42,246 nucleotides of DNA from assembly GCA_963170165.1 (NCBI GenBank), contig CAUJGQ010000065.1:1-42246 (forward strand), written 5' to 3'. The notes beneath the pieces are model-generated. The model saw nothing but the letters and a program-made list of their open reading frames with translations. It was not told where the DNA came from and did not search any database. Origin of the DNA: Chloroflexota bacterium. GTDB taxonomy: Bacteria; Chloroflexota; Dehalococcoidia; CAUJGQ01. Below, piece by piece: positions 3,412 through 20,622 of this stretch (position 1 is its first letter; every line of letters begins with the position of its first letter). The position numbers and the translations under genes are program-made.

Positions 3412-4230
3412 ATGACCCAATTTGTCAAGAGTCACGGCCTGGGCAATGACTACATCGTGATGGAGCCCCAGAAGTTGCCCTTCGCCCTCACCGAAGAGAA
3501 CATTCGCCTGATCTGTCACCGCAACCTCGGGGTCGGCTCCGACGGAATTCTGGCGCTCACGACCAGTGATCGCGCGGAGTTCGGTGTTCGCATCTTCAAC
3601 CCGGACGGCTCGGAGGCGGAAAAAAGCGGCAATGGCACCCGCATCTTCGCCAAGTATCTCTACGACTATGGCCACACTCGTGCCACTCACTTCAGCATTG
3701 ATACGCTCGGCGGCATCGTCACCGCCGACCTGGATGTCGTGGACGGCCGCGTCGTGGGAGCGACGATGAACATGGGGCGTGCCCGCATCGGCGAGCTAAC
3801 GTCAATCAGCGTCGATGGCGACGACATCAGCGTCATCACCGTCGATGTCGGCAACCCCCACTGCGTGGTGCTGGTAGATGACTTGGGCGCTGTCGACTTC
3901 TACCGCCTGGGCCCGCGCATCGAGAATCATCCAGCATTCCCGCATCGGACGAACGTGCAGTTCGCTCAGGTCATGGCGGCCGATGAGGTCAGCATCCTGA
4001 TCTGGGAACGGGGCGCAGGCGAGACGATGGCCTCGGGGACGAGCGCCAGCGCTGTGGCCGCGGCCACCCGGCACGCCGGCCTAAGTGGTGATGACGTGCG
4101 CATCGTCGCCCCGGGGGGAACCCTACGGATCCGTACCGAAGCGAACGGGGAGATCTGGATGTCGGGCCCGGTAGAAGAGGTGTGCAGTGGCGACCTGAGC
4201 CCGGAAATGCTGCGGCGGCTCGGGGCTTAG
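3412..4230 (+). CDS. dapF: diaminopimelate epimerase family protein with Ser/Ser active site
   Basis: A 272-residue homologue of DapF, the PLP-independent enzyme that interconverts LL- and meso-diaminopimelate for lysine and peptidoglycan synthesis. The two-domain pattern is clear: KSHGLGNDYIVM at the N-terminus, RIFNPDGSEAEKSGNGTR (60s-70s) and WERGAGETMASGTSAS (around 200). In canonical DapF the residue before each GNG or GT is a catalytic cysteine; here both are serine (Ser72, codon agc; Ser208, codon tcg). The start at 3412 has AGGAGG 11 bases upstream and gives the usual family length. Its stop overlaps that of the convergent phosphatase gene by three bases. It may be a divergent epimerase/racemase or a serine-variant DapF. 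Confidence 0.85.
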   Translation: MTQFVKSHGLGNDYIVMEPQKLPFALTEENIRLICHRNLGVGSDGILALTTSDRAEFGVRIFNPDGSEAEKSGNGTRIFAKYLYDYGHTRATHFSIDTLGGIVTADLDVVDGRVVGATMNMGRARIGELTSISVDGDDISVITVDVGNPHCVVLVDDLGAVDFYRLGPRIENHPAFPHRTNVQFAQVMAADEVSILIWERGAGETMASGTSASAVAAATRHAGLSGDDVRIVAPGGTLRIRTEANGEIWMSGPVEEVCSGDLSPEMLRRLGA

Positions 4231-4838
4231 AGCCGGTCCAGGTGGCAGGTGTCGTTGACACTGAGCAACACGCCCCGCCCGCCACGAACCTCCACCACGG
4301 TGATTGACGCGTTGTCGCAGGCGAATGGCAGCGGACGCCGGTAGGGCAGCCCCAGGACGCTCATGCAGAACACCAGAATCGGACCGCCGTGGTTAACCAC
4401 CGCGACCGTCTGGTCTGCGTGTGTGGCCTCCAACGCCCACAGCGCCGTGCACACTCGTTCCTGGAACGCCGCGCGGCCCTCCTCGCCAGGCCAGGCAGGA
4501 AACTCGCCGCTGCGGCTGCGTTGTGCCGCAGCCAGCTCCGGATGTTGCGCCCGAATGTCAGCCCAGGTCATTCCGGAGAGGTGACCGAAGTCATACTCCA
4601 TCACCGCTTCCAGCGGCTCGATGGCGATGCGGCAGGCTTCGGCAATGTGCTCAGCGGTGTGATAGGCACGGCTGAGCGGGCTGGCGTACAGGGCATCGGG
4701 GGGGTCCACCGCCAGCCGGTCTGCCAGTCCCCGCGCCTGGCGCAGGCCGCGGTCGCTGAGCGGGTAGTCTGCTCGCCCCTGGAATCGCCCTTCGGCGTTG
4801 CCCACGCTCTCTGCGTGCCGGATCAGCAGCAGCCGCAT
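4227..4838 (-). CDS. histidine phosphatase family protein
   Basis: A 203-residue member of the phosphoglycerate-mutase-like histidine phosphatases. The catalytic motif LIRHAES lies at the N-terminus (His8 becomes phosphorylated). The later motifs YASPLSRAYHTAEHIA, MEYDFGHLSGM and VVNHGGP supply the remaining active-site Arg, Glu and His. Substrates in this family range from 2,3-bisphosphoglycerate to alpha-ribazole phosphate and cannot be decided here; no cobalamin genes are nearby. The ATG at 4838 places the motif at the usual distance from the N-terminus; an in-frame TTG two codons earlier is less likely. It follows the selenoprotein gene on the same strand with a 72-base gap. Confidence 0.88.
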   Translation of the reverse strand: MRLLLIRHAESVGNAEGRFQGRADYPLSDRGLRQARGLADRLAVDPPDALYASPLSRAYHTAEHIAEACRIAIEPLEAVMEYDFGHLSGMTWADIRAQHPELAAAQRSRSGEFPAWPGEEGRAAFQERVCTALWALEATHADQTVAVVNHGGPILVFCMSVLGLPYRRPLPFACDNASITVVEVRGGRGVLLSVNDTCHLDRL

Positions 4839-4910
4839 ACACAAGTCCTCATCAGGGCAGGGTGACAGCGCCTTGCGCTGGGACTGACGGCGTCCTCAGG
4901 GTGCTGCCGG

Positions 4911-5447
4911 CTATGTGGTTGCCTTCGTGAGCAAGTTCACCACTTGCGGCAGCGCTGCTTCGGCGCGCGCGCGCAGCTCGTCGTCGCTGGCGCTGCCTAT
5001 CGGATGGCTGATGACTGCGAATGGGTAGGCGCCGTTACCGCGCGAACGGGCCATGGCCCTGGCGGTGACGACGAATGGCTCGGTGCAGACGACCGCTGCC
5101 GGCTTGCCCCGTACCTCGACCTCAAGTCCATCGTGCAAACTGCACGAGCTGCAAGAGCCTCAATCGCCGACCGCACTGACCACCACGTCGCAGTCAGCGA
5201 CAAGCTGGTCGAGCGTCGCCGGGGGCGCCGGGCGGCTCGCGTTCAGTTTGCGCGCCCGGACGAAGCGCATTCCCTGATGGTGCTCCGCCAAGAGGCGCTC
5301 CAGGTGATCGAGGAACCGGGCGACGCCGGGCTTGCCGTTATCCAGCAGGCCGGCGCACAGGCCACTGAGTGTTTCCGGTCTGGGAGCAAGCGGGATGATG
5401 TCCGGTGCAGGATCGACGGTCGGGTCGAGCACCAATATCGTGCTCAC
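4911..5447 (-). CDS. UGSC family selenoprotein (in-frame UGA = Sec96)
   Basis: A 178-residue protein read through an in-frame TGA (5162-5160) as selenocysteine. The upstream part begins at a GTG (5447) with GGAGG six bases before it and runs through LVLDPTVDP, LAPRP, GLLDNGKPG and SRPAP to CDVVVSAVGD. After the UGA the frame continues GSCSSCSLHDGLEVEVRG and ends at the TAG at 4911-4913. The resulting U-G-S-C motif and the surrounding order of motifs match the UGSC (seleno)protein family, whose relatives often carry Cys at the Sec position. A U..C pair suggests redox chemistry; the true reaction is unknown. Conventional ORF calling would split it into a 3'-truncated and an orphan fragment. The gene directly upstream (5465-6508) is probably co-transcribed. 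Confidence 0.92.
5131..5162 (-). promoter_or_regulatory. bacterial SECIS element with Sec UGA
   Basis: Immediately after the UGA (5162-5160) the minus-strand RNA can form a perfect 7-bp hairpin (5147-5141 with 5137-5131) closed by a three-base loop GUU. The first loop base is G, and it is the 20th nucleotide after the UGA. Known bacterial SECIS elements have a small apical loop with a G at its first or second position, roughly 16-37 nucleotides downstream of the UGA, so SelB could recognise it. The stem lies inside the coding sequence. Confidence 0.85.
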
Positions 5448-5464
5448 GTGCGCCTCCTCTCTCG

Positions 5465-6508
5465 TCAGGCGGTGTTGCGGCGCAGCGGCCGCGTCACTGC
5501 GTGCGAGGATCTTCCTACCCATGGCGGGATAATACAGCCCATGCCTCCCGCAGCGCCGCCGGCCGCCAGCACATGGAGGGCGTCCGCGCCGCCGGCCACC
5601 GACACGGGTGCCTCAAGGGCCACCCGCCCAGAGACCTTGCCTGCCCGGCTGAAGTCCGCCTGGCTCACCCGTGCCTGCTCGTACAGGAACTGCTGGACCT
5701 GGCGCCGCGACCAGCCGGCCGCGGCCAGATAGCGGTAGTGCTGCGGCGGGATTACGACAGCGAACTCGGCCGGCCGAGCGGAGGACATGCCTGCCGGGTT
5801 GGCGAGCGCGGCCACGTAGCTGGCGAGCAAGGTCTCGGGCTCCTGCGCCGTCTCGTTGAACACCTGGTGCGGACCCTCGCCGGCAAACACCGTTACCGCA
5901 CTCTGCCCGGCCGCAAGACCGCGCACCACCTGGTATGGCTCCCACGGGCTGCTAGTCTCATCCTCGGCAATGCAGTAACTGTACTTCCCAGGGTGACCGA
6001 TCGTGGCCTTGTCCAGCATTCCCGGCTGTGCGCCAAAGCAGTTCATCAGCACCAGCCGCACGGCGCGGCCGATGGTCGCGTTGGCGCGGTTGCCGGGGCC
6101 AAACAGATTAACGCCGCTGTTCACACCCAGATCGGCGACGATCGGCCCGTGGACGATCACCAGTACCCCCGCTCCCCCGGTGCTGGCTGAGATGCCGTGG
6201 AGATTGAAGGCGTCGTCGCTCATCGCTTCCACGGCGGCCATGACCACACCGGTATACTCGGCCATGCAGCCGGCCATGATGGCATTGATGGCGACCTTCT
6301 CGGCAGGCACCACGCGCCGCCGGGTTTCCAGCCGCCCGACGATCTCATCCGGCTCATAGCCGGCGCGCGCCAAGAACTCACGTACACGTGACTCGGTGGG
6401 GGGCACCACCGGCAGGCCGTCCGTCCAGCCCTTCTCGTAGAAGAACTCGATGGCCTGCAGACCGTCTTGAGTCTCATGCTGGGACGCGGTGAGCGGCTTG
6501 GCGGTCAT
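5465..6508 (-). CDS. uncharacterised protein paired with UGSC selenoprotein
   Basis: A 347-residue protein that I cannot assign to a characterised enzyme. It starts with a motif-rich segment (IEFFYEKGWTDGLPVVPPTE), followed by a glycine-rich middle (SASTGGAGVLVIVHGP, GVNLFGPGNRANATIGRA) and ends with GGMGCIIPPWVGR and a basic tail. No signal peptide or membrane span is evident. Four cysteines fall in conserved-looking contexts (MAGCMAEY, LMNCFGAQ, YSYCIAED, GMGCII). It lies 17 bases upstream of the UGSC selenoprotein on the same strand, so the two probably form one operon and may act on the same substrate. The ATG at 6508 is preceded by GGAG at 7 bases. Confidence 0.85.
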   Translation of the reverse strand: MTAKPLTASQHETQDGLQAIEFFYEKGWTDGLPVVPPTESRVREFLARAGYEPDEIVGRLETRRRVVPAEKVAINAIMAGCMAEYTGVVMAAVEAMSDDAFNLHGISASTGGAGVLVIVHGPIVADLGVNSGVNLFGPGNRANATIGRAVRLVLMNCFGAQPGMLDKATIGHPGKYSYCIAEDETSSPWEPYQVVRGLAAGQSAVTVFAGEGPHQVFNETAQEPETLLASYVAALANPAGMSSARPAEFAVVIPPQHYRYLAAAGWSRRQVQQFLYEQARVSQADFSRAGKVSGRVALEAPVSVAGGADALHVLAAGGAAGGMGCIIPPWVGRSSHAVTRPLRRNTA

Positions 6509-6534: not shown

Positions 6535-7110
6535 TCAGCGCGGGTGCAACATGTGAAGGAATCCCTCCAGCATCCGCGCGGTGGCGCCCCAGATGCGGTG
6601 CCCTTCATACCAGTAGGCAGGTGAATGCGCCGGGCCTCCAGACCAGTTAACCCGTGGTTCCATCACCTTGTTGGCTGGGTCCAGCAGATGACGCACCGGC
6701 ACTTCTAGTACCTCGGCTACCTCATGCGGGCTGGGCACGAAATCATACGGCGCGCGCTTCAGCACGCCCACAAACGGCGCCACCCGGAAACTGGAGATGG
6801 TGATGATCTCATCCAGCCGCCCGATCAGCTCGATGTCAGCTGGGTTCACACCTACCTCTTCGTACGTCTCGCGTAATGCCGTGACCGATAGATCCTCATC
6901 CACGCCGTGGCGCCCGCCTCCGGGAAAGGAAATCTGCCCCTTGTGGGTATCCACGGTGTCGGTGCGCCGGGTGAGTAGCACCGTCTCCCGCCCGGCCAGG
7001 TGATAGACCAGCACGAGTACGGCAGCCTCACGCGCCGCATCGCCCGGGGCGGGCGCCGGGACGTAGCCGGCGAGTACAGAGCGTGAGCGGTGAATCAAAT
7101 CGTCGGTCAT
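6535..7110 (-). CDS. Nudix hydrolase, CoA pyrophosphatase (NudL/YeaB-like)
   Basis: A 191-residue Nudix enzyme expected to cleave CoA or acyl-CoA into 3',5'-ADP and (acyl-)phosphopantetheine. The Nudix box is intact: G, five residues, E, seven residues, then RETYEEVGV. Just before it, LLTRRTDTVDTHKGQISFPGG matches the extra motif that marks the CoA-pyrophosphatase subgroup. The start at 7110 (MTDDLIHRS) gives the normal family length; the open frame runs further upstream but overlaps the neighbouring gene and lacks family similarity. It lies 26 bases before the unknown partner gene in the same minus-strand series. The link to CoA fits the acyl-CoA enzymes elsewhere in the window. Confidence 0.9.
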   Translation of the reverse strand: MTDDLIHRSRSVLAGYVPAPAPGDAAREAAVLVLVYHLAGRETVLLTRRTDTVDTHKGQISFPGGGRHGVDEDLSVTALRETYEEVGVNPADIELIGRLDEIITISSFRVAPFVGVLKRAPYDFVPSPHEVAEVLEVPVRHLLDPANKVMEPRVNWSGGPAHSPAYWYEGHRIWGATARMLEGFLHMLHPR

Positions 7111-7204
7111 CGCCGGCGGTCGTCCTCTCACAGGCAGGCAGACATACGTGGAGGTATGCACAGCATAGCGCGGTTGCCTCGGTCCGGCATCTTCTATCCG
7201 CCCA

Positions 7205-7651
7205 CTAGAGCGCCCCGACCAGCCGGCGCTGGGCGCTCGTCTCCAGCGCATCTAGCAGCAGCGTCAGCAAGCCGGCCGGCGCATCCGGCGCGACCGCCAG
7301 CGGCACAAACCGGGACACCAACGCACGCAGGCGGTCGTTGGCCGGTGCGAGCGTGCTGAGCCGTACATCAGCATCCTGCTCCGCCGCGGCCTGCCGGCCG
7401 GCAGCGGCCAGGCCGGCAGCGCAGCCATCCACCAGCGTGGCGGCATGTGCCAGCAGCGCGCGTAGCGCGGCGTTGTCATCCACAAGCTGTTGTGCAGCGC
7501 CGTCTGACAGGGCCAGCAGCGCGCTCAGCACATGCGAGGCATATCCGGCCTGTGCCGCGGCATACGGCGCCGGTAGCGCCGGCACGATCTGGGCGGCGAG
7601 ACTGTGCTGCACGCCGCGGATGATCTCATCGGGTGCCGGCCTGAGCGCCAT
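7205..7651 (-). CDS. unknown helical protein
   Basis: A 148-residue, alanine- and leucine-rich protein of unknown family, apparently all helical and soluble. Its start ATG has a good GGAGG site, and it follows the phosphotransferase gene by 18 bases, so co-transcription is likely. Similar short proteins beside phosphotransferase-family genes may help bind or modify the same small molecule, but this is only suggested by position. Its C-terminus lies 94 bases before the Nudix gene. Confidence 0.72.
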   Translation of the reverse strand: MALRPAPDEIIRGVQHSLAAQIVPALPAPYAAAQAGYASHVLSALLALSDGAAQQLVDDNAALRALLAHAATLVDGCAAGLAAAGRQAAAEQDADVRLSTLAPANDRLRALVSRFVPLAVAPDAPAGLLTLLLDALETSAQRRLVGAL

Positions 7652-11998: not shown

Positions 11999-12907
11999 AT
12001 GCGACCGGCGTTGAGTATGGTAGGCACGCCCGGGCGGCGAGGCGTGGCACTGGAGGCCGCGCAAGAGATTGAGCGGCGTGGCTTCAGCGGCATCTACATC
12101 CCCAGCTTCCTTGATGGCATGGGGCTATGCGAGGCAATTGCCCTGCGCACCTCCACGATTCGAATCGGCACCAGTATCGCCAACATCTATACCCGCCATG
12201 CCACGGAGTATGCAGCCACGGCGGCGTTGATTCATGAGCTGAGCGGCGGGCGGTTCGACTTTGGCATCGGCGTCAGCCATGGTCCTGTCCACCGCCGGTT
12301 GGGGGTCGATCCGGGCAAGCCACTAAGCACTATGCGCCGGTTTGTGGAGGAGCTGCGCGGGGCTGCCGGTGGCCCGGGCAGTGTGGGACCGTTGCCACCG
12401 GTGATCCTCGCGACGTTGCGTACGAGCATGGTCAAGCTGGCATCGGAGCTGGCCGAAGGGGCGGTGTGGGCCAACGGTGCACGCTCGCACATGGCGGCTT
12501 CACTGTCGCATCTCACCGAGGCACAGCGTCGCGGCGGCTTCTTCGTTGGCAACATGATCCCAACCTGCGTCTCGGACGACCGTGAGGCGGCCGCACAGGT
12601 GATGCGACGCAGCTTGCTCGGCTATGTCCAGTTGCCCAACTACCAGAACTACTGGGTTGAGGCCGGATACCAAGAGGAGATCACGGCAATACGCAGCGCA
12701 ATCGCGGCCGGGGAGCGCGAGCGGCTGCCCTCACTGATGAGCGAGCGGTGGCTGCAGGACGTGACCCTATACGGAACCGCCGCCGAGGTGCGCGATGGCC
12801 TTGAGGCATGGCGGGCCGCCGGTGTGACCACGCCGATCCTCGTGCCGTCATCGGTCAGCGGCGGCCAGTGGCAGGCGCTGGAACAGGTGATGGCGGCATT
12901 CGCATGA
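11999..12907 (+). CDS. LLM class flavin-dependent oxidoreductase
   Basis: A 302-residue member of the luciferase-like monooxygenase superfamily, a TIM-barrel fold binding F420 or FMN. The central ELSGGRFDFGIGVSHG segment is the typical LLM signature (LSGGR.xxGxG). The ending (GTAAEVRDGLEAWRAAGVTTPILVP) matches the barrel-closing helix and strand of F420-dependent reductases. The substrate is unknown. Two other LLM genes lie on the opposite strand just downstream, so this may be a small F420 enzyme cluster. Confidence 0.9.
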   Translation: MRPALSMVGTPGRRGVALEAAQEIERRGFSGIYIPSFLDGMGLCEAIALRTSTIRIGTSIANIYTRHATEYAATAALIHELSGGRFDFGIGVSHGPVHRRLGVDPGKPLSTMRRFVEELRGAAGGPGSVGPLPPVILATLRTSMVKLASELAEGAVWANGARSHMAASLSHLTEAQRRGGFFVGNMIPTCVSDDREAAAQVMRRSLLGYVQLPNYQNYWVEAGYQEEITAIRSAIAAGERERLPSLMSERWLQDVTLYGTAAEVRDGLEAWRAAGVTTPILVPSSVSGGQWQALEQVMAAFA

Positions 12908-12953
12908 GACAGCCGCCAAACCACCCCGAGTGATGCGCCCGGGCACGAGGCAA

Positions 12954-12982
12954 CGGGTGGGCACGTCGACGGCGCCCGCCCG
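12954..12982 (+). terminator. candidate terminator hairpin
   Basis: Bases 12954-12962 pair with 12974-12982 (9 bp with one G-U on the plus strand, 11-base loop) between convergent genes. No U-tract follows. Confidence 0.4.
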
Positions 12983-13006
12983 CACCCGGCCAGCCAGATC
13001 CACCCG

Positions 13007-13897
13007 TTAGCGACGGTCGATGAGTTCCTTGAAGCGGAGCACCGCGTCGATGTGCTGCCCAGGCGACGTGAAGCCGCCGCCCATGGTGTTGACGGAGAGG
13101 TGCGTTGCCCCCAGCGCCTGCCACGCCTCGTAGCTGTCGAGTAGCACCTCCGGCAGATCACTGTGCACGGATATCCGCCCTTCGATACCGACCGCGGCTG
13201 GGTCCCTCCCTGCCGCTCGGATGTAGCCATGCAGCCGCTCGATAATCGCGCGGGCATCCGCTGACGGCTGAAACTGCGGGAACCAGCCATCAGCGACCCG
13301 CGCCAGCCGGCGGAGCACCGGCTCTGCCATACCGCCCATCCACAGCGGGATTGGCCGCTGCACTGGAAGCGGGCTGATCCCAACCCGATCCAGCGTGTGC
13401 CAGCGCCCGCGAAACGTTACAACCGGCTCCGTCCACAGCCGGCGCAGCACCGCGATCTGCTCGGTCATGCGGCGGCCACGGGTGTGGAAGTCTTCCCCCA
13501 ACGCCTCATACTCAGTGAAGTTCCAGCCGATGCCGGCGCCGAGCCTGAGCCGTCCGCCTGACAAGATGTCGATGGCAGCGGCCTGCTTGGCCACCAGCGC
13601 AGTCTGGCGCTGCGGCAGGATTAGCACCCCGGTGACGAGTTCCAGCCGCTGTGTCAGCGCCGCGAGATAGCCAAACAGCGCGAACGGCTCGTGAAACGTA
13701 CTCTCATGCGTATACGGTGGCCGGCGAACGCTGCCGGTACCCTCGGTGAACCGCTCCGGCAGCGCACCCAGTACATGGTCATAGACAAGCAGGTGATCGT
13801 AGCCGGCTCGCTCGACCGCAACCGTATAGTCACGGATCGCCGCCGGGTCACTGCCGATCTCCGTCTGGGGAAACACCACGCCCAAACGCACAGTCAT
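13007..13897 (-). CDS. LLM class F420-dependent oxidoreductase (TIGR03619-like)
   Basis: A 296-residue luciferase-like flavoprotein. The N-terminal LGVVFPQTEIGSDPAAIRDY and YDHLLVYDHVLG, the ILSGGRLRLGAGIGWNFTEYEALG signature spread over residues 108-131, and PIPLWMGG in the second half match the F420-dependent subgroup typified by mycobacterial Rv2161c. It probably reduces or oxygenates an organic substrate with reduced F420. Its AGGAG ribosome site lies in the six-base gap after the upstream LLM gene, so the two are one operon. Confidence 0.9.
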   Translation of the reverse strand: MTVRLGVVFPQTEIGSDPAAIRDYTVAVERAGYDHLLVYDHVLGALPERFTEGTGSVRRPPYTHESTFHEPFALFGYLAALTQRLELVTGVLILPQRQTALVAKQAAAIDILSGGRLRLGAGIGWNFTEYEALGEDFHTRGRRMTEQIAVLRRLWTEPVVTFRGRWHTLDRVGISPLPVQRPIPLWMGGMAEPVLRRLARVADGWFPQFQPSADARAIIERLHGYIRAAGRDPAAVGIEGRISVHSDLPEVLLDSYEAWQALGATHLSVNTMGGGFTSPGQHIDAVLRFKELIDRR

Positions 13898-13903
13898 GCT
13901 CCT

Positions 13904-14884
13904 CTAAAGGAACTTGGGCATCACATCCTCGGTGAACGCCTGTAGCGCTTCGAAGTTCACCGGCGGCCGAAAGGCGATGTTCAGCGCCGTCACTCCGGCG
14001 GCAGCATACTGCTCAATCTGGCCGGCCACATCCGCCGGGCCGCCCACCAGCGAGCCGCTGGCGACACGCCGCACCGCGTCCCGATCCACCTTGCCATCCG
14101 GCCCCTGGAACCGTGCCGCAGACGGGCCCCACTGGCGCAGCAGCCCATCGACCGAAGCGTCGGATTGCGCCTGGGTGGCCGCCATGTTGAAAGACAGGTT
14201 GATCGAGCGCTTGATGGTGGTGGGGTCTCGGCCTTCTTTCTCGCACCACTGATCGAGCACCTGGCTCTTGTGCTTGAACGCGTCAGCCGAGATGTAGGGA
14301 ACATTCCAGCCATCTGCCTGTTGCGCGGCGATGCGCAGCGTGCGCTTCTCGCCCTGGCCACCGATCCACACCGGCATCGGGTTGCGCAATGGCTTTGGCA
14401 CCATCGTGGCATGGCTGATGTGGTAGTACTGCCCGTCCCAGGTGGTGCGGTCCTGCGCCATCAGCAGCCGGATGACGCGGGTGCCCTCGGCCAGTTGATC
14501 AAGCCGCTGCTTGGGCGGGTGGTAGGGGAAGCCGTAGGCGTTGTGCTCCATCTCATGCCAGCCTGCACCGAGGCCAATGGCACAACGCCCGCCGCTGAGA
14601 TGGTCGACGCTGATCAGCGACCGCAGGAGCAACGCCGGATTGCGGTAGGTCATGCAGAAGACGAGGCAGCCGATCTCGACATTGCGCGTCTCGCAGGCGA
14701 TCGCGCTCATGAGCGCCACCGCCTCGAAGTGGGGCGACGTGCCGTCGACCGGTGGCGCCTCCATGAAATGGTCCCACACCGAGATCCACTGATAGCCGTG
14801 CGTGTCGGCGTAGTTCCACAGGCGGCGAAGGTCGTCAATGCCGATGTTTTGCGGGCCGATGTGAATGCCGAAACGGATGCCCAT
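13904..14884 (-). CDS. LLM class F420-dependent oxidoreductase (TIGR03560-like)
   Basis: A 326-residue luciferase-like flavoprotein. RFGIHIGPQNIGIDDLRRLW and the following WISVWDHF form the first barrel strands; HLSGGRCAIGLGAGWHEMEH is the family signature, and PMPVWIGGQGEKRTLRIA follows. The pattern fits the TIGR03560 group of F420-dependent oxidoreductases. It is the first gene of a two-gene operon with the LLM gene at 13007. A GAGGAGAGG site precedes the ATG. It is divergent from the oxidase operon across a 298-base region. Confidence 0.9.
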   Translation of the reverse strand: MGIRFGIHIGPQNIGIDDLRRLWNYADTHGYQWISVWDHFMEAPPVDGTSPHFEAVALMSAIACETRNVEIGCLVFCMTYRNPALLLRSLISVDHLSGGRCAIGLGAGWHEMEHNAYGFPYHPPKQRLDQLAEGTRVIRLLMAQDRTTWDGQYYHISHATMVPKPLRNPMPVWIGGQGEKRTLRIAAQQADGWNVPYISADAFKHKSQVLDQWCEKEGRDPTTIKRSINLSFNMAATQAQSDASVDGLLRQWGPSAARFQGPDGKVDRDAVRRVASGSLVGGPADVAGQIEQYAAAGVTALNIAFRPPVNFEALQAFTEDVMPKFL

Positions 14885-16061: not shown

Positions 16062-17954
16062 ATGACAGATGCGGTAGCGCACGCGCACGGAGCAGCAGGC
16101 GGAGACGGCCCGGCCTACACTGGCTGGTACGCCGCGGGGCGAATGGCACGCGGTGTCGCCTGGGCGGCCGTGGGATTCGCCCTCGGTGTGGCCCTGCTGG
16201 CGGTGGTCCGCAACATTACGGGTCACGATGGGTGGTCCAAGGAAGCCAGCATCTGCGCGGGTTACCTGCTGGCGCTGCCCGGCTGGCTGTTCGGCATGGG
16301 CATGTGGGACGGCTGGGGTCGCGAGTGGTTCGGGCACAAAGTCAAGCACGCGCCATCAGACTGGGGCCGGTACTTCTCCTTCTGCCACGACCATAAGGTC
16401 ATCGGTATCCAGTACCTGGCCACGTTTGTCTTCCTGTTCCTGTTCGCCGGTCTGTTCGCGATGGTGATTCGGTGGCAGCTCCTGTCGCCGAACGGCGCGA
16501 TCCTGACCAATGCGCAGTACAACAGCGTGATGAGCATGCACGGCACGGTGATGATCGCCGTGGCCGTCGCGGGAGTGGCGGGCAGCTTCGGCAACTACAT
16601 CCTGCCCCTACAGCTCGGCGCTGATGACATGGCCTTCCCCCGGCTGAATGCGATGAGCTTCTGGCTGATTCCGCCGGTGGCCGTGCTGCTGCTGGCGGCG
16701 CTGCCGATGGGTGGTTGGGACACGGGCTGGACCGCCTACCCGCCGCTCAGCACCACGAACGGCACCGGCCAGCTGATGTTCAACCTGGCGATCATCACCT
16801 TCGGCCTGTCCTCCATCCTCAGCGGCCTGAACTTCATCTGCACGTTCATCTTCATGCGCGCCGAGGGTATGACCTGGAGCCGGATCCCGGTCTTCTCCTG
16901 GTCGCTGTTTGCGATGGCGTGGATCGCGCTGCTGTTCACGCAGTTGTTCGCCGTCTCGCTGATCATGGTGACGCTGGACCGCGTGGCCGGCACCTCTTGG
17001 TTCAACGCCACCCACGGCGGTCAGCCGCTGCTGTACCAGCACGTCTTCTGGTTTTACTCCCATCCGGCGGTGTACATCTTCGTCCTGCCTGCTTTTGGCA
17101 TCATCCTGGAGATCCTGTCCCACCTGTCGCGTAAACCGCTGTTTGCCTACAAGTGGGTCGTGGGCGCGTTCTTCGGCATCTTGGGGCTGAGCGGTATCGT
17201 GTGGGCGCACCACATGTTCACCAGCACCATGGATGCCCGCCTGCTCAAGCCCTTCTTGATCACGACGGAGCTGATCTCCATCCCCACCGGCCTGATCTTC
17301 CTCGCCGCCCTGGGCACCATCTGGCAGGGCAAACTGTGGCTGCGTGTGCCGATGCTGTTCGCCCTCGGTGAAGTGTTCAACTTCCTGATCGGCGGCGTCA
17401 CCGGTATCTTCCTGGCAGACCTGCCGACTGACATCCACCTGCAGGACACGTACTTCGTCGTCGCTCACTTCCACTACACCATCGTGGGTGGTGAGATCTT
17501 CGCCCTGTTCGCGGGTATCTACTTCTGGTACCCGAAGATCACCGGCCGCATGTACAACGAACGGCTGGGGCAATGGCACTTCTGGCTGATGTTCCTGGGC
17601 TTCAACTTCACCTTCATCCCCATGTTCTGGCCCGGCATCCAGGGGATGAACCGGCGTATCGCCGAGTACACCCCCGACTTGCAGAACATCAACATCGTTG
17701 TCAGCGTGATGGCCTTCATTCTGGGCGCCAGCTTCCTACCCTTTGTATGGAACATGCTGGCCTCCCTGTTCCGCGGTGAGCGCGCTCAAGCCAACCCATG
17801 GCGCGCGCGGACGCTGGAGTGGCAGACGACATCCCCGCCGCCGGTGGAGAACTTCCCCGTGCCACCGCTGGTGACGGGCGGCCCGTACGACTACGGCGTG
17901 CCGGGCGCGGCGGTCCATGCCGCCCCCGCCTACAGCGCCGCGGCAGGCGATTAG
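16062..17954 (+). CDS. ctaD: cytochrome c oxidase subunit I, A2-like, lacking K-channel Lys
   Basis: A 630-residue catalytic subunit of an aa3-type heme-copper oxidase, which reduces O2 to water and pumps protons. The heme and copper ligands are all present: His160 (MSMHGTV), His334 and cross-linking Tyr338 (YSHPAVY), His383-His384 (AHHMFTS), His469 and His471 (HFHYT). The YSHPxV motif in place of the GHPEV glutamate marks A2-type oxidases. The D-channel entrance GADDMAFPRLNAMSF is kept. The K-channel motif PTGxK reads PTGLI, with Ile412 for the usual lysine and Glu403 six residues before Thr409. An extra membrane segment (about 31-51) and a second (about 62-82) precede the conserved core; the C-terminal 60 residues are a Pro/Ala-rich tail. 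Confidence 0.95.
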   Translation: MTDAVAHAHGAAGGDGPAYTGWYAAGRMARGVAWAAVGFALGVALLAVVRNITGHDGWSKEASICAGYLLALPGWLFGMGMWDGWGREWFGHKVKHAPSDWGRYFSFCHDHKVIGIQYLATFVFLFLFAGLFAMVIRWQLLSPNGAILTNAQYNSVMSMHGTVMIAVAVAGVAGSFGNYILPLQLGADDMAFPRLNAMSFWLIPPVAVLLLAALPMGGWDTGWTAYPPLSTTNGTGQLMFNLAIITFGLSSILSGLNFICTFIFMRAEGMTWSRIPVFSWSLFAMAWIALLFTQLFAVSLIMVTLDRVAGTSWFNATHGGQPLLYQHVFWFYSHPAVYIFVLPAFGIILEILSHLSRKPLFAYKWVVGAFFGILGLSGIVWAHHMFTSTMDARLLKPFLITTELISIPTGLIFLAALGTIWQGKLWLRVPMLFALGEVFNFLIGGVTGIFLADLPTDIHLQDTYFVVAHFHYTIVGGEIFALFAGIYFWYPKITGRMYNERLGQWHFWLMFLGFNFTFIPMFWPGIQGMNRRIAEYTPDLQNINIVVSVMAFILGASFLPFVWNMLASLFRGERAQANPWRARTLEWQTTSPPPVENFPVPPLVTGGPYDYGVPGAAVHAAPAYSAAAGD

Positions 17955-18885: not shown

Positions 18886-18924
18886 CCCTCCCCAGTGATG
18901 CCGGCAGCGAGAGAGGACCGACCG

Positions 18925-20622
18925 ATGACGTGGATGCAGCGCCAAGGCGCCGCGACTGCCGTGCTCGCCTGGTTCGCCGTACTGGCCGGTGAGCTTTCGT
19001 TAGCCCTGCAACGCGGTGCGTTGGTCATCTGCGCGCTCAGCACGGTCGTGCTCGCTGTGCTGGCCGCCCGCCGCGGCAAAACGGTCCGTCCACTCACGCT
19101 GCTGACGGTGGCCGGTCTGCTGCTGATTGCCTTGTTGCTCGTCACGGGCAAGGCCGGGCCTGAGCGCAGCGCCCCGGCCTTGCGGCTCGGGTTGTCCATG
19201 GCGCTGCTCGGTGTGACGGTGACCCAGGCCGTGCTGGCTGCGGGGGCACGCCGGAAATCTGCGGCAGACGCGGGTGGCGAGGGGTTCGCGCTGCTCTGCG
19301 CCGGCACCGCTCTCGCGACCTCCATCCTGCTGCTGACCGGCGCTATCGTCACCGGCGAGAACGCCGGGCTGGCCTGCTCCGGCTGGCCGCTGTGCAATGG
19401 CGAGGTGTTCCCCGCCGGGGACCGGTTGGCCGGGATCAACGCCTTCCACCGCGTGGCATCGGCCGGCGCCGGCACGCTCGTGGCCGTCCTGCTCTGGCGG
19501 ACCTTCGCCGCCCGCCCGCGAAACCGCGCGCTGGTGCTGACCGGTGGCGCGCTTGCCGCCGTCTACGCCGCACAGGTGGTGCTTGGCGCGGTCAACGTGT
19601 GGCTGGACCTGGCGGAACCGGTGCGGGCGGCGCACCTCGGCGCAGCAGCCCTGGCGTGGGGCACCCTGGTGCTAATGACCGTGCTGGCGTTCCGCGTGGC
19701 GGCCCGGCCGGTGGCGGCGGGCGGCACCGTGGCGATTCCTACCACGAGCCGCGGCGCATCCATCCTCGCCTACATCAACCTGATGAAGCCCCGCATCATC
19801 GAGCTGCTGCTTGTCACCACCGTGCCAGCCATGGTCCTGGCCGAGCGCGGCCTGCCGTCGCTGTGGCTGATGGCCGCGACCATCGCCGGCGGTGTCCTCA
19901 CTGCCGGGGGCGCCAATGCCATCAACTGCTACATTGACCGCGACATCGACCAGGTGATGAAGCGCACGCGCCGCCGGGCGCTGCCGGGTAACCGTGTGGC
20001 GCCGGCCCGTGCACTGGCATTCGGCGTGATCATCGGCATTGTCGGGTTTCTAGAGCTGGCGATCCTGGTCAACCTGCTAGCGGCGGTGCTGTCAATCAGC
20101 GCCCTGCTGTTCTACGTGTTCGTCTATACCCTCTGGCTCAAGCGACGGTACACGCAAAACATCGTCATTGGTGGCGCCGCCGGCGCCATCCCGCCGCTGG
20201 TCGGGTGGGCCGCCGTCACCGGCCGCATCGACCTGCCCGCGCTGGTGCTGTTCTTGATCGTTGTGGTGTGGACACCACCCCATTTCTGGGCACTGGCGAT
20301 CAAGTACCGGGAGGACTACGCCGCTGCCGGTGTGCCAATGCTGCCGGTGGCGCGTGGCGACGCCGCCACCCGCGTCCAGATCTTCTGGTACACCTTGGCG
20401 CTGGTCGCCTGTTCTGTGCTGCTGTTCGTCAGCGGCGGCGCCGGTATCCTGTACCTGGCAGCAGCCGTGGCGCTGGGCATCTGGATCGTGCGCATGGCCG
20501 TGCAGCTGCTACGGCAAGGCGACGGCTTCCCCGTGATGAAGCTATTCACGTTCTCCATCAGCTATCTCGGGCTGCTGTTCGCTGCAATGATTGCCGATCA
20601 GGCAGCTCGTTCGCTGCTGTGA
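18925..20622 (+). CDS. ctaB: heme A synthase-like / protoheme IX farnesyltransferase fusion
   Basis: A 565-residue integral membrane protein making the hemes for the oxidase. The C-terminal part (about 280-565) is heme O synthase CtaB, which farnesylates protoheme IX; its Asp-rich motif NCYIDRDID (Asn334, Asp338, Asp342) and the YTQNIVIGGAAGAIPPLVGW segment are intact. The N-terminal part (1-260) is CtaA/COX15-like, with about eight helices. Only its second half carries the expected features: a Cys pair (Cys150, Cys157), His175 in INAFHR and His237. The four preceding helices have no histidine. The residue normally Glu, three before the first His, is Asn172. Start 18925 has GAGAGAGGA seven bases upstream. 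Confidence 0.92.
   Translation: MTWMQRQGAATAVLAWFAVLAGELSLALQRGALVICALSTVVLAVLAARRGKTVRPLTLLTVAGLLLIALLLVTGKAGPERSAPALRLGLSMALLGVTVTQAVLAAGARRKSAADAGGEGFALLCAGTALATSILLLTGAIVTGENAGLACSGWPLCNGEVFPAGDRLAGINAFHRVASAGAGTLVAVLLWRTFAARPRNRALVLTGGALAAVYAAQVVLGAVNVWLDLAEPVRAAHLGAAALAWGTLVLMTVLAFRVAARPVAAGGTVAIPTTSRGASILAYINLMKPRIIELLLVTTVPAMVLAERGLPSLWLMAATIAGGVLTAGGANAINCYIDRDIDQVMKRTRRRALPGNRVAPARALAFGVIIGIVGFLELAILVNLLAAVLSISALLFYVFVYTLWLKRRYTQNIVIGGAAGAIPPLVGWAAVTGRIDLPALVLFLIVVVWTPPHFWALAIKYREDYAAAGVPMLPVARGDAATRVQIFWYTLALVACSVLLFVSGGAGILYLAAAVALGIWIVRMAVQLLRQGDGFPVMKLFTFSISYLGLLFAAMIADQAARSLL

Follow-up and report, generated by a model that had tools for sequence, protein, structure and literature searches.

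Proteins of the UGSC family were recognised as one of the major selenoprotein families in the GOS survey, and fusions of UGSC to a second domain designated 'Unknown_1' were already described in 2008 (PMC2398784). The texts consulted on this family (PF24696/NF041046) contain no description of a constant partner gene or of a predicted fold other than a thioredoxin one. The other described system of relevance here is the selenocysteine (Sec) domain of GrdB and PrdB from glycine and D-proline reductase (PF07355 and its relatives), for which a cleavage of the selenium-carbon bond coupled to a selenenyl sulfide has been proposed (PMC10298544). In the literature, represented for most papers by partial texts, we found neither a named partner of UGSC nor a link between UGSC and GrdB.

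We analysed a window of 42,246 nucleotides from a Chloroflexota genome (4.4 Mb in 213 contigs, 97% complete), in which a UGSC-family selenoprotein gene of 178 codons is located at 4911..5447 on the minus strand. Its frame, read directly from the window DNA, runs from GTG at 5447 through an in-frame TGA at 5162-5160 to TAG at 4913-4911, with the junction peptide GD-U-GSCSSC and the putative selenocysteine (5160..5162, minus strand) as residue 96 of the translation; the positions and the peptide given in the preliminary description proved exact when re-read and translated. A mechanical open reading frame, 5160-5522, stops at the TGA and may start from ATG at 5522, but we prefer GTG 5447, since a Shine-Dalgarno-like AGGAGG (5453..5458, minus strand) lies five bases ahead of it; the ATG start would overlap the gene upstream of UGSC. 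The assignment to the UGSC family, proposed from the letters of the DNA, is borne out by two models, Pfam UGSC PF24696 (E 5.4e-53, 180 bits at a cut-off of 25, residues 6-174 of the read-through protein) and NCBIfam NF041046 'UGSC family (seleno)protein' (139 bits at a cut-off of 125), and the single PF24696 profile covers both sides of the UGA. The motif reads D-U-GSC here, and among 46 aligned sequences its C/U, G and C positions are invariant. No difference from the family is seen at the sequence level, as the full-length match, the U/C-G-S-C motif, the SECIS directly after the UGA and the existence of Cys homologues are all shared.

The host was presumed to possess SelA, SelB, SelC and SelD, and the genome indeed contains selA, selB, selD and a tRNA-Sec gene, all scoring over curated cut-offs, the latter with the anticodon TCA (ARAGORN); selB and selC, on whose presence the preliminary description had made its reading dependent, are thus both there. 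The host selD is itself a selenoprotein gene, with an in-frame TGA in SCGG-U-ASK (L018, G000:C150, 1501-2433). Three UGSC copies occur in the host genome and the two paralogues also carry TGA at the Sec column, while in one other genome of the same family all four UGSC copies possess one in-frame TGA. UGSC was found in 42 of 400 genomes of the phylum, and 86 of the 91 UGSC matches in this sample have exactly one in-frame TGA, with no other stop in any of them. Among 80 loci from named genomes the Sec column holds UGA in 50 and Cys in 30, which agrees with the expectation of Cys at position 96 in relatives; Cys forms occur in haloarchaea, actinobacteria and sphingomonads and include those of Natrinema, Natrialba, Halorubrum, Natronomonas, Sphingobium, Pseudonocardia and Nonomuraea. 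Downstream of the UGA the coding sequence is conserved and has many synonymous changes, and in six of seven comparisons with relatives it is the part behind the UGA that shows the greater amino-acid identity (L028, where it is slightly lower, being the exception), so that the loss of conservation named beforehand as contrary evidence is not what was found.

The bacterial SECIS hairpin, TCGTGCA-GUU-TGCACGA, occupies 5131..5147 on the minus strand and consists of a perfect 7-bp stem with arms 5147-5141 and 5137-5131 and the loop GUU at 5140-5138. Its first base is nucleotide 13 after the UGA and the loop G (5140) is nucleotide 20, so stem, loop and spacing are as the preliminary description had them, and RNA folding reproduces the structure. 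Published bSECIS criteria (PMC13188914) call for a loop of 3-9 nt with a G as its first or second base, a stem of 4-16 bp, a distance of 16-37 nt from the UGA and an MFE <= -7.5 kcal/mol. The element lies within every limit: its loop has 3 nt, opens with G and begins at nucleotide 20, its stem has 7 bp, and the MFE is -12.0 kcal/mol for the 42 bases downstream of the UGA. When the UGSC peptide was resampled synonymously, 1.1% of the trials produced a GU-loop stem of at least 6 bp at this site and 0.7% one of 7 perfect base pairs, and the hairpin is more than chance. The Rfam model RF00031 (SECIS_1) had no match in the genome, this model being of the wrong type and leaving the controls unmatched as well.

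The DNA behind the codon sets Sec genes apart from Cys genes, with counts that do not represent independent events because the sequences are related: the loop dinucleotide at nucleotides 20-21 is GU in 71 of 71 distinct Sec sequences versus 0 of 27 Cys sequences, and a stem of at least 6 bp is present at the hairpin site in 67 of 71 Sec loci versus 1 of 27 Cys loci. The stem pair 18-24 is paired in all 68 of 68 Sec sequences, as CG (52), GC (14), TG or TA, and in just 17 of the 27 Cys sequences. Covariation is exemplified by Cys (TGC), Ser, Val (GTG) changing to Trp (TGG), Ser, Val (GTC). This split of the GU loop between Sec and Cys genes provides a clean comparative test case for the bacterial SECIS function.

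Two other readings of the UGA have to be weighed against these data. It could be a genuine stop that leaves a 95-aa product, a pseudogene or a sequencing error, and the mechanical frame does end there, which is all that speaks for it; the TGA that the two paralogues and dozens of loci share at this column, the single in-frame TGA in each of the four UGSC copies of the family relative, and the conserved, synonymously changing downstream sequence spanned together with the upstream half by one profile make this reading very improbable, and on comparative grounds we consider it refuted. Even less credit can be given to a changed genetic code, by which TGA would mean Trp, Gly or Cys rather than a SelB-inserted Sec: such codes would leave the frame open, but TGA terminates 4 of 10 surveyed genes, the partner gene included, the relatives carry Cys, which is the usual exchange partner of Sec, and the complete Sec machinery and a SECIS are present. 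Real stop, sequencing error and global recoding are therefore rejected, because of the Cys/Sec exchange, the SECIS contrast and the downstream conservation, and the reading of the UGA as selenocysteine is supported by genomic and comparative evidence. Given the family match, the SECIS, the machinery, the UGAs of the paralogues, the Cys relatives and the GU-loop contrast, the window gene is, judging by sequence, a new member of a known, functionally uncharacterised redox selenoprotein family. The selenoprotein as such is to be expected, UGSC being already listed as a selenoprotein family.

Immediately upstream of UGSC lies a gene for a 347-aa protein (5465..6508, minus strand), whose own TGA stop is 17 nt before the UGSC start. 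We name it the partner, since a homologue detected by the partner profile is adjacent to UGSC or fused with it, on the same strand, in 106 of 116 UGSC loci; the division into fused and adjacent is approximate, as some of the 'fused' rows are read-through artefacts of TGA stops, while the total stands. Of the 36 loci from the family search, none of which except the window's own had contributed to the partner profile, 30 have the partner within flanks no longer than about 1.5 kb. It is located upstream of UGSC at some loci and downstream at others, with a gap of 400 to 1,430 bases in about five, and accompanies both the Sec and the Cys forms; each of the three UGSC genes of the host genome has a partner of its own. 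Among the 400 phylum genomes UGSC occurs in 42, the partner in 42 and both in 41, that is in 41 of the 43 with either, the exceptions being G252 (UGSC without partner) and G074 (partner without UGSC); with such an almost absolute co-occurrence the partner family deserves a family model of its own. It is highly probable, taking both parts of the statement together, that the window gene is a UGSC selenoprotein partnered with the upstream gene.

Pfam holds no credible match for the partner by itself or for 26 homologues taken together, and NCBIfam none either. Residues D30, G31, P33, C81, E182 and W189 of the partner are invariant. The host genome also contains a natural UGSC fusion whose C-terminal domain shares 44% identity with the partner (E 2e-78), and the 'Unknown_1' fusion domain of the 2008 report (PMC2398784) is probably this partner. 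The natural fusion, of about 530 aa, is encoded at L026 (G000:C56, 436-2010, minus strand); its codon at the Sec site is TGA, and motif position +6 holds W in place of C. At least two partner genes are found near one UGSC at L128 (3586-5789), L106 (3564-6520), L101 (849-2948) and L108 (860-2947), which suggests either a duplication or that the partner itself consists of two subunits. Another cluster of neighbours of about 400 aa, seen at 24 loci, was set aside as likely shadow ORFs because at least one member is antisense to a partner gene.

The AlphaFold2 model of UGSC (mean pLDDT 92.6, pTM 0.86) has alternating strands and helices; strand 88-94 precedes the Sec and helix 97-112 follows it. 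The nearest solved folds among the matches listed are flavodoxins, receivers and Rossmann proteins with middling scores, and the matches from Foldseek and VIA, being generic, indicate no function; neither GrdB/PrdB nor thioredoxin is among the structure matches listed, the latter observation not excluding a thioredoxin match. A sequence search of UGSC and partner against the PDB returned nothing credible, so no solved structure is available for either. The model of a UGSC-partner fusion scored pLDDT 87.1 and pTM 0.86, and the structure searches made with it covered the UGSC domain only. The fold is thus predicted to be a Rossmann/flavodoxin-like alpha/beta one, and the earlier thioredoxin-like suggestion is not favoured.

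That UGSC may be a thioredoxin-like thiol oxidoreductase is suggested by its UxxC motif, since most UxxC selenoproteins are thiol oxidoreductases, but we regard this as rather unlikely: the confident model is Rossmann/flavodoxin-like, with no thioredoxin among the matches listed (one may still exist), profile similarity points to GrdB/PrdB, and a dedicated enzyme would better account for the near-absolute tie to a single partner. We consider a two-subunit selenolate enzyme composed of UGSC and its partner to be most likely on the present sequence data.

The similarity to GrdB/PrdB was found with hhalign, where UGSC aligned with the GrdB/PrdB Sec domain at 96% probability (E 2.6e-9), and the spacing U-x2-C-x11-E-x2-G-x-P is common to the UGSC proteins and the GrdB/PrdB group when aligned on Sec. 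As controls, the partner profile gave 1.3%, 100 column shuffles a best E of 0.027, and shuffles that kept the motif a best E of 6.5e-4. With the motif masked in both profiles the alignment persisted in the same register (58%, E 1e-4), and with the motif and the following helix masked together the signal was gone (0.2%); convergence on a single beta-alpha-beta active-site unit could thus account for the shared stretch. UGSC scores 13.5 bits with the GrdB model TIGR01917, far under its cut-off of 602.2. We conclude that UGSC and the GrdB/PrdB Sec domain are probably remotely related through local homology, without UGSC being a member of that group. Both have UxxC after a strand; UGSC, however, lacks the remainder of GrdB and is found, for example, in haloarchaea and Burkholderiales. 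For the partner no resemblance to GrdE/PrdA, the pyruvoyl-type subunit, was detected (the 26 partner proteins gave nothing GrdE/PrdA-like in Pfam up to E 1), though distant homology is possible. Two GrdB-family genes of the phylum, L142 and L143, have U-G-S-C and not U-G-T-C at the Sec site, and possession of U-G-S-C is therefore not enough by itself to define the UGSC family.

We propose that SelB with Sec-tRNA-Sec would recognise the GU-loop hairpin after the UGA and insert Sec at residue 96, where it would end a strand just before a helix, placing the selenolate at the helix N-terminus with the invariant Cys three residues on. UGSC and the 347-aa protein encoded upstream would be the two subunits of one enzyme, the association of their genes suggesting a physical complex. 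Because of the probable homology to the GrdB/PrdB Sec domain, the selenolate may attack a substrate held between the two subunits, the +3 Cys may then resolve the intermediate as a selenenyl sulfide, and the outcome may be, by analogy with GrdB/PrdB, a reductive cleavage of the substrate. Such GrdB-like chemistry in UGSC is put forward tentatively, as an analogy that could well fail. At other loci the UGSC neighbours comprise tripartite tricarboxylate receptors, a CoA-transferase, enoyl-CoA hydratase, dehydrogenases and DUF6282, which hints at catabolism. A broader picture, in which UGSC and partner form a widespread, sometimes fused enzyme whose Sec site is kin to that of glycine/proline reductase and which makes and breaks a selenium-carbon bond in a new class of substrates, is a conjecture that we ourselves hold to be unlikely; if true, it would extend selenium-carbon chemistry across bacteria and archaea, including organisms outside the anaerobic fermenters where it is known. 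The partner, present almost everywhere that UGSC is, and the probable link to glycine/proline reductase offer a testable handle on the function of an orphan selenoprotein, and together they make of UGSC a system of two defined proteins amenable to expression and assay.

Next to the pair, a NUDIX hydrolase gene (6535..7251, minus strand; PF00293, E 3.9e-12) is the next one upstream of the partner, with a 26-nt gap, and a gene of the histidine phosphatase family (4227..4844, minus strand; PF00300, E 3e-54) is the next downstream of UGSC; both may belong to one operon with UGSC, as we infer from the arrangement. Farther along, the window encodes cytochrome oxidase subunit I (COX1, 16062-17954), and the host therefore probably respires oxygen. 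Downstream of COX1, one frame of 575 aa (18895-20622, plus strand) joins a COX15/CtaA domain with a UbiA prenyltransferase domain and is apparently a fused haem A/haem O synthase. Three luciferase-like monooxygenase genes stand side by side at 11999-14884, two on the minus strand and one on the plus strand.
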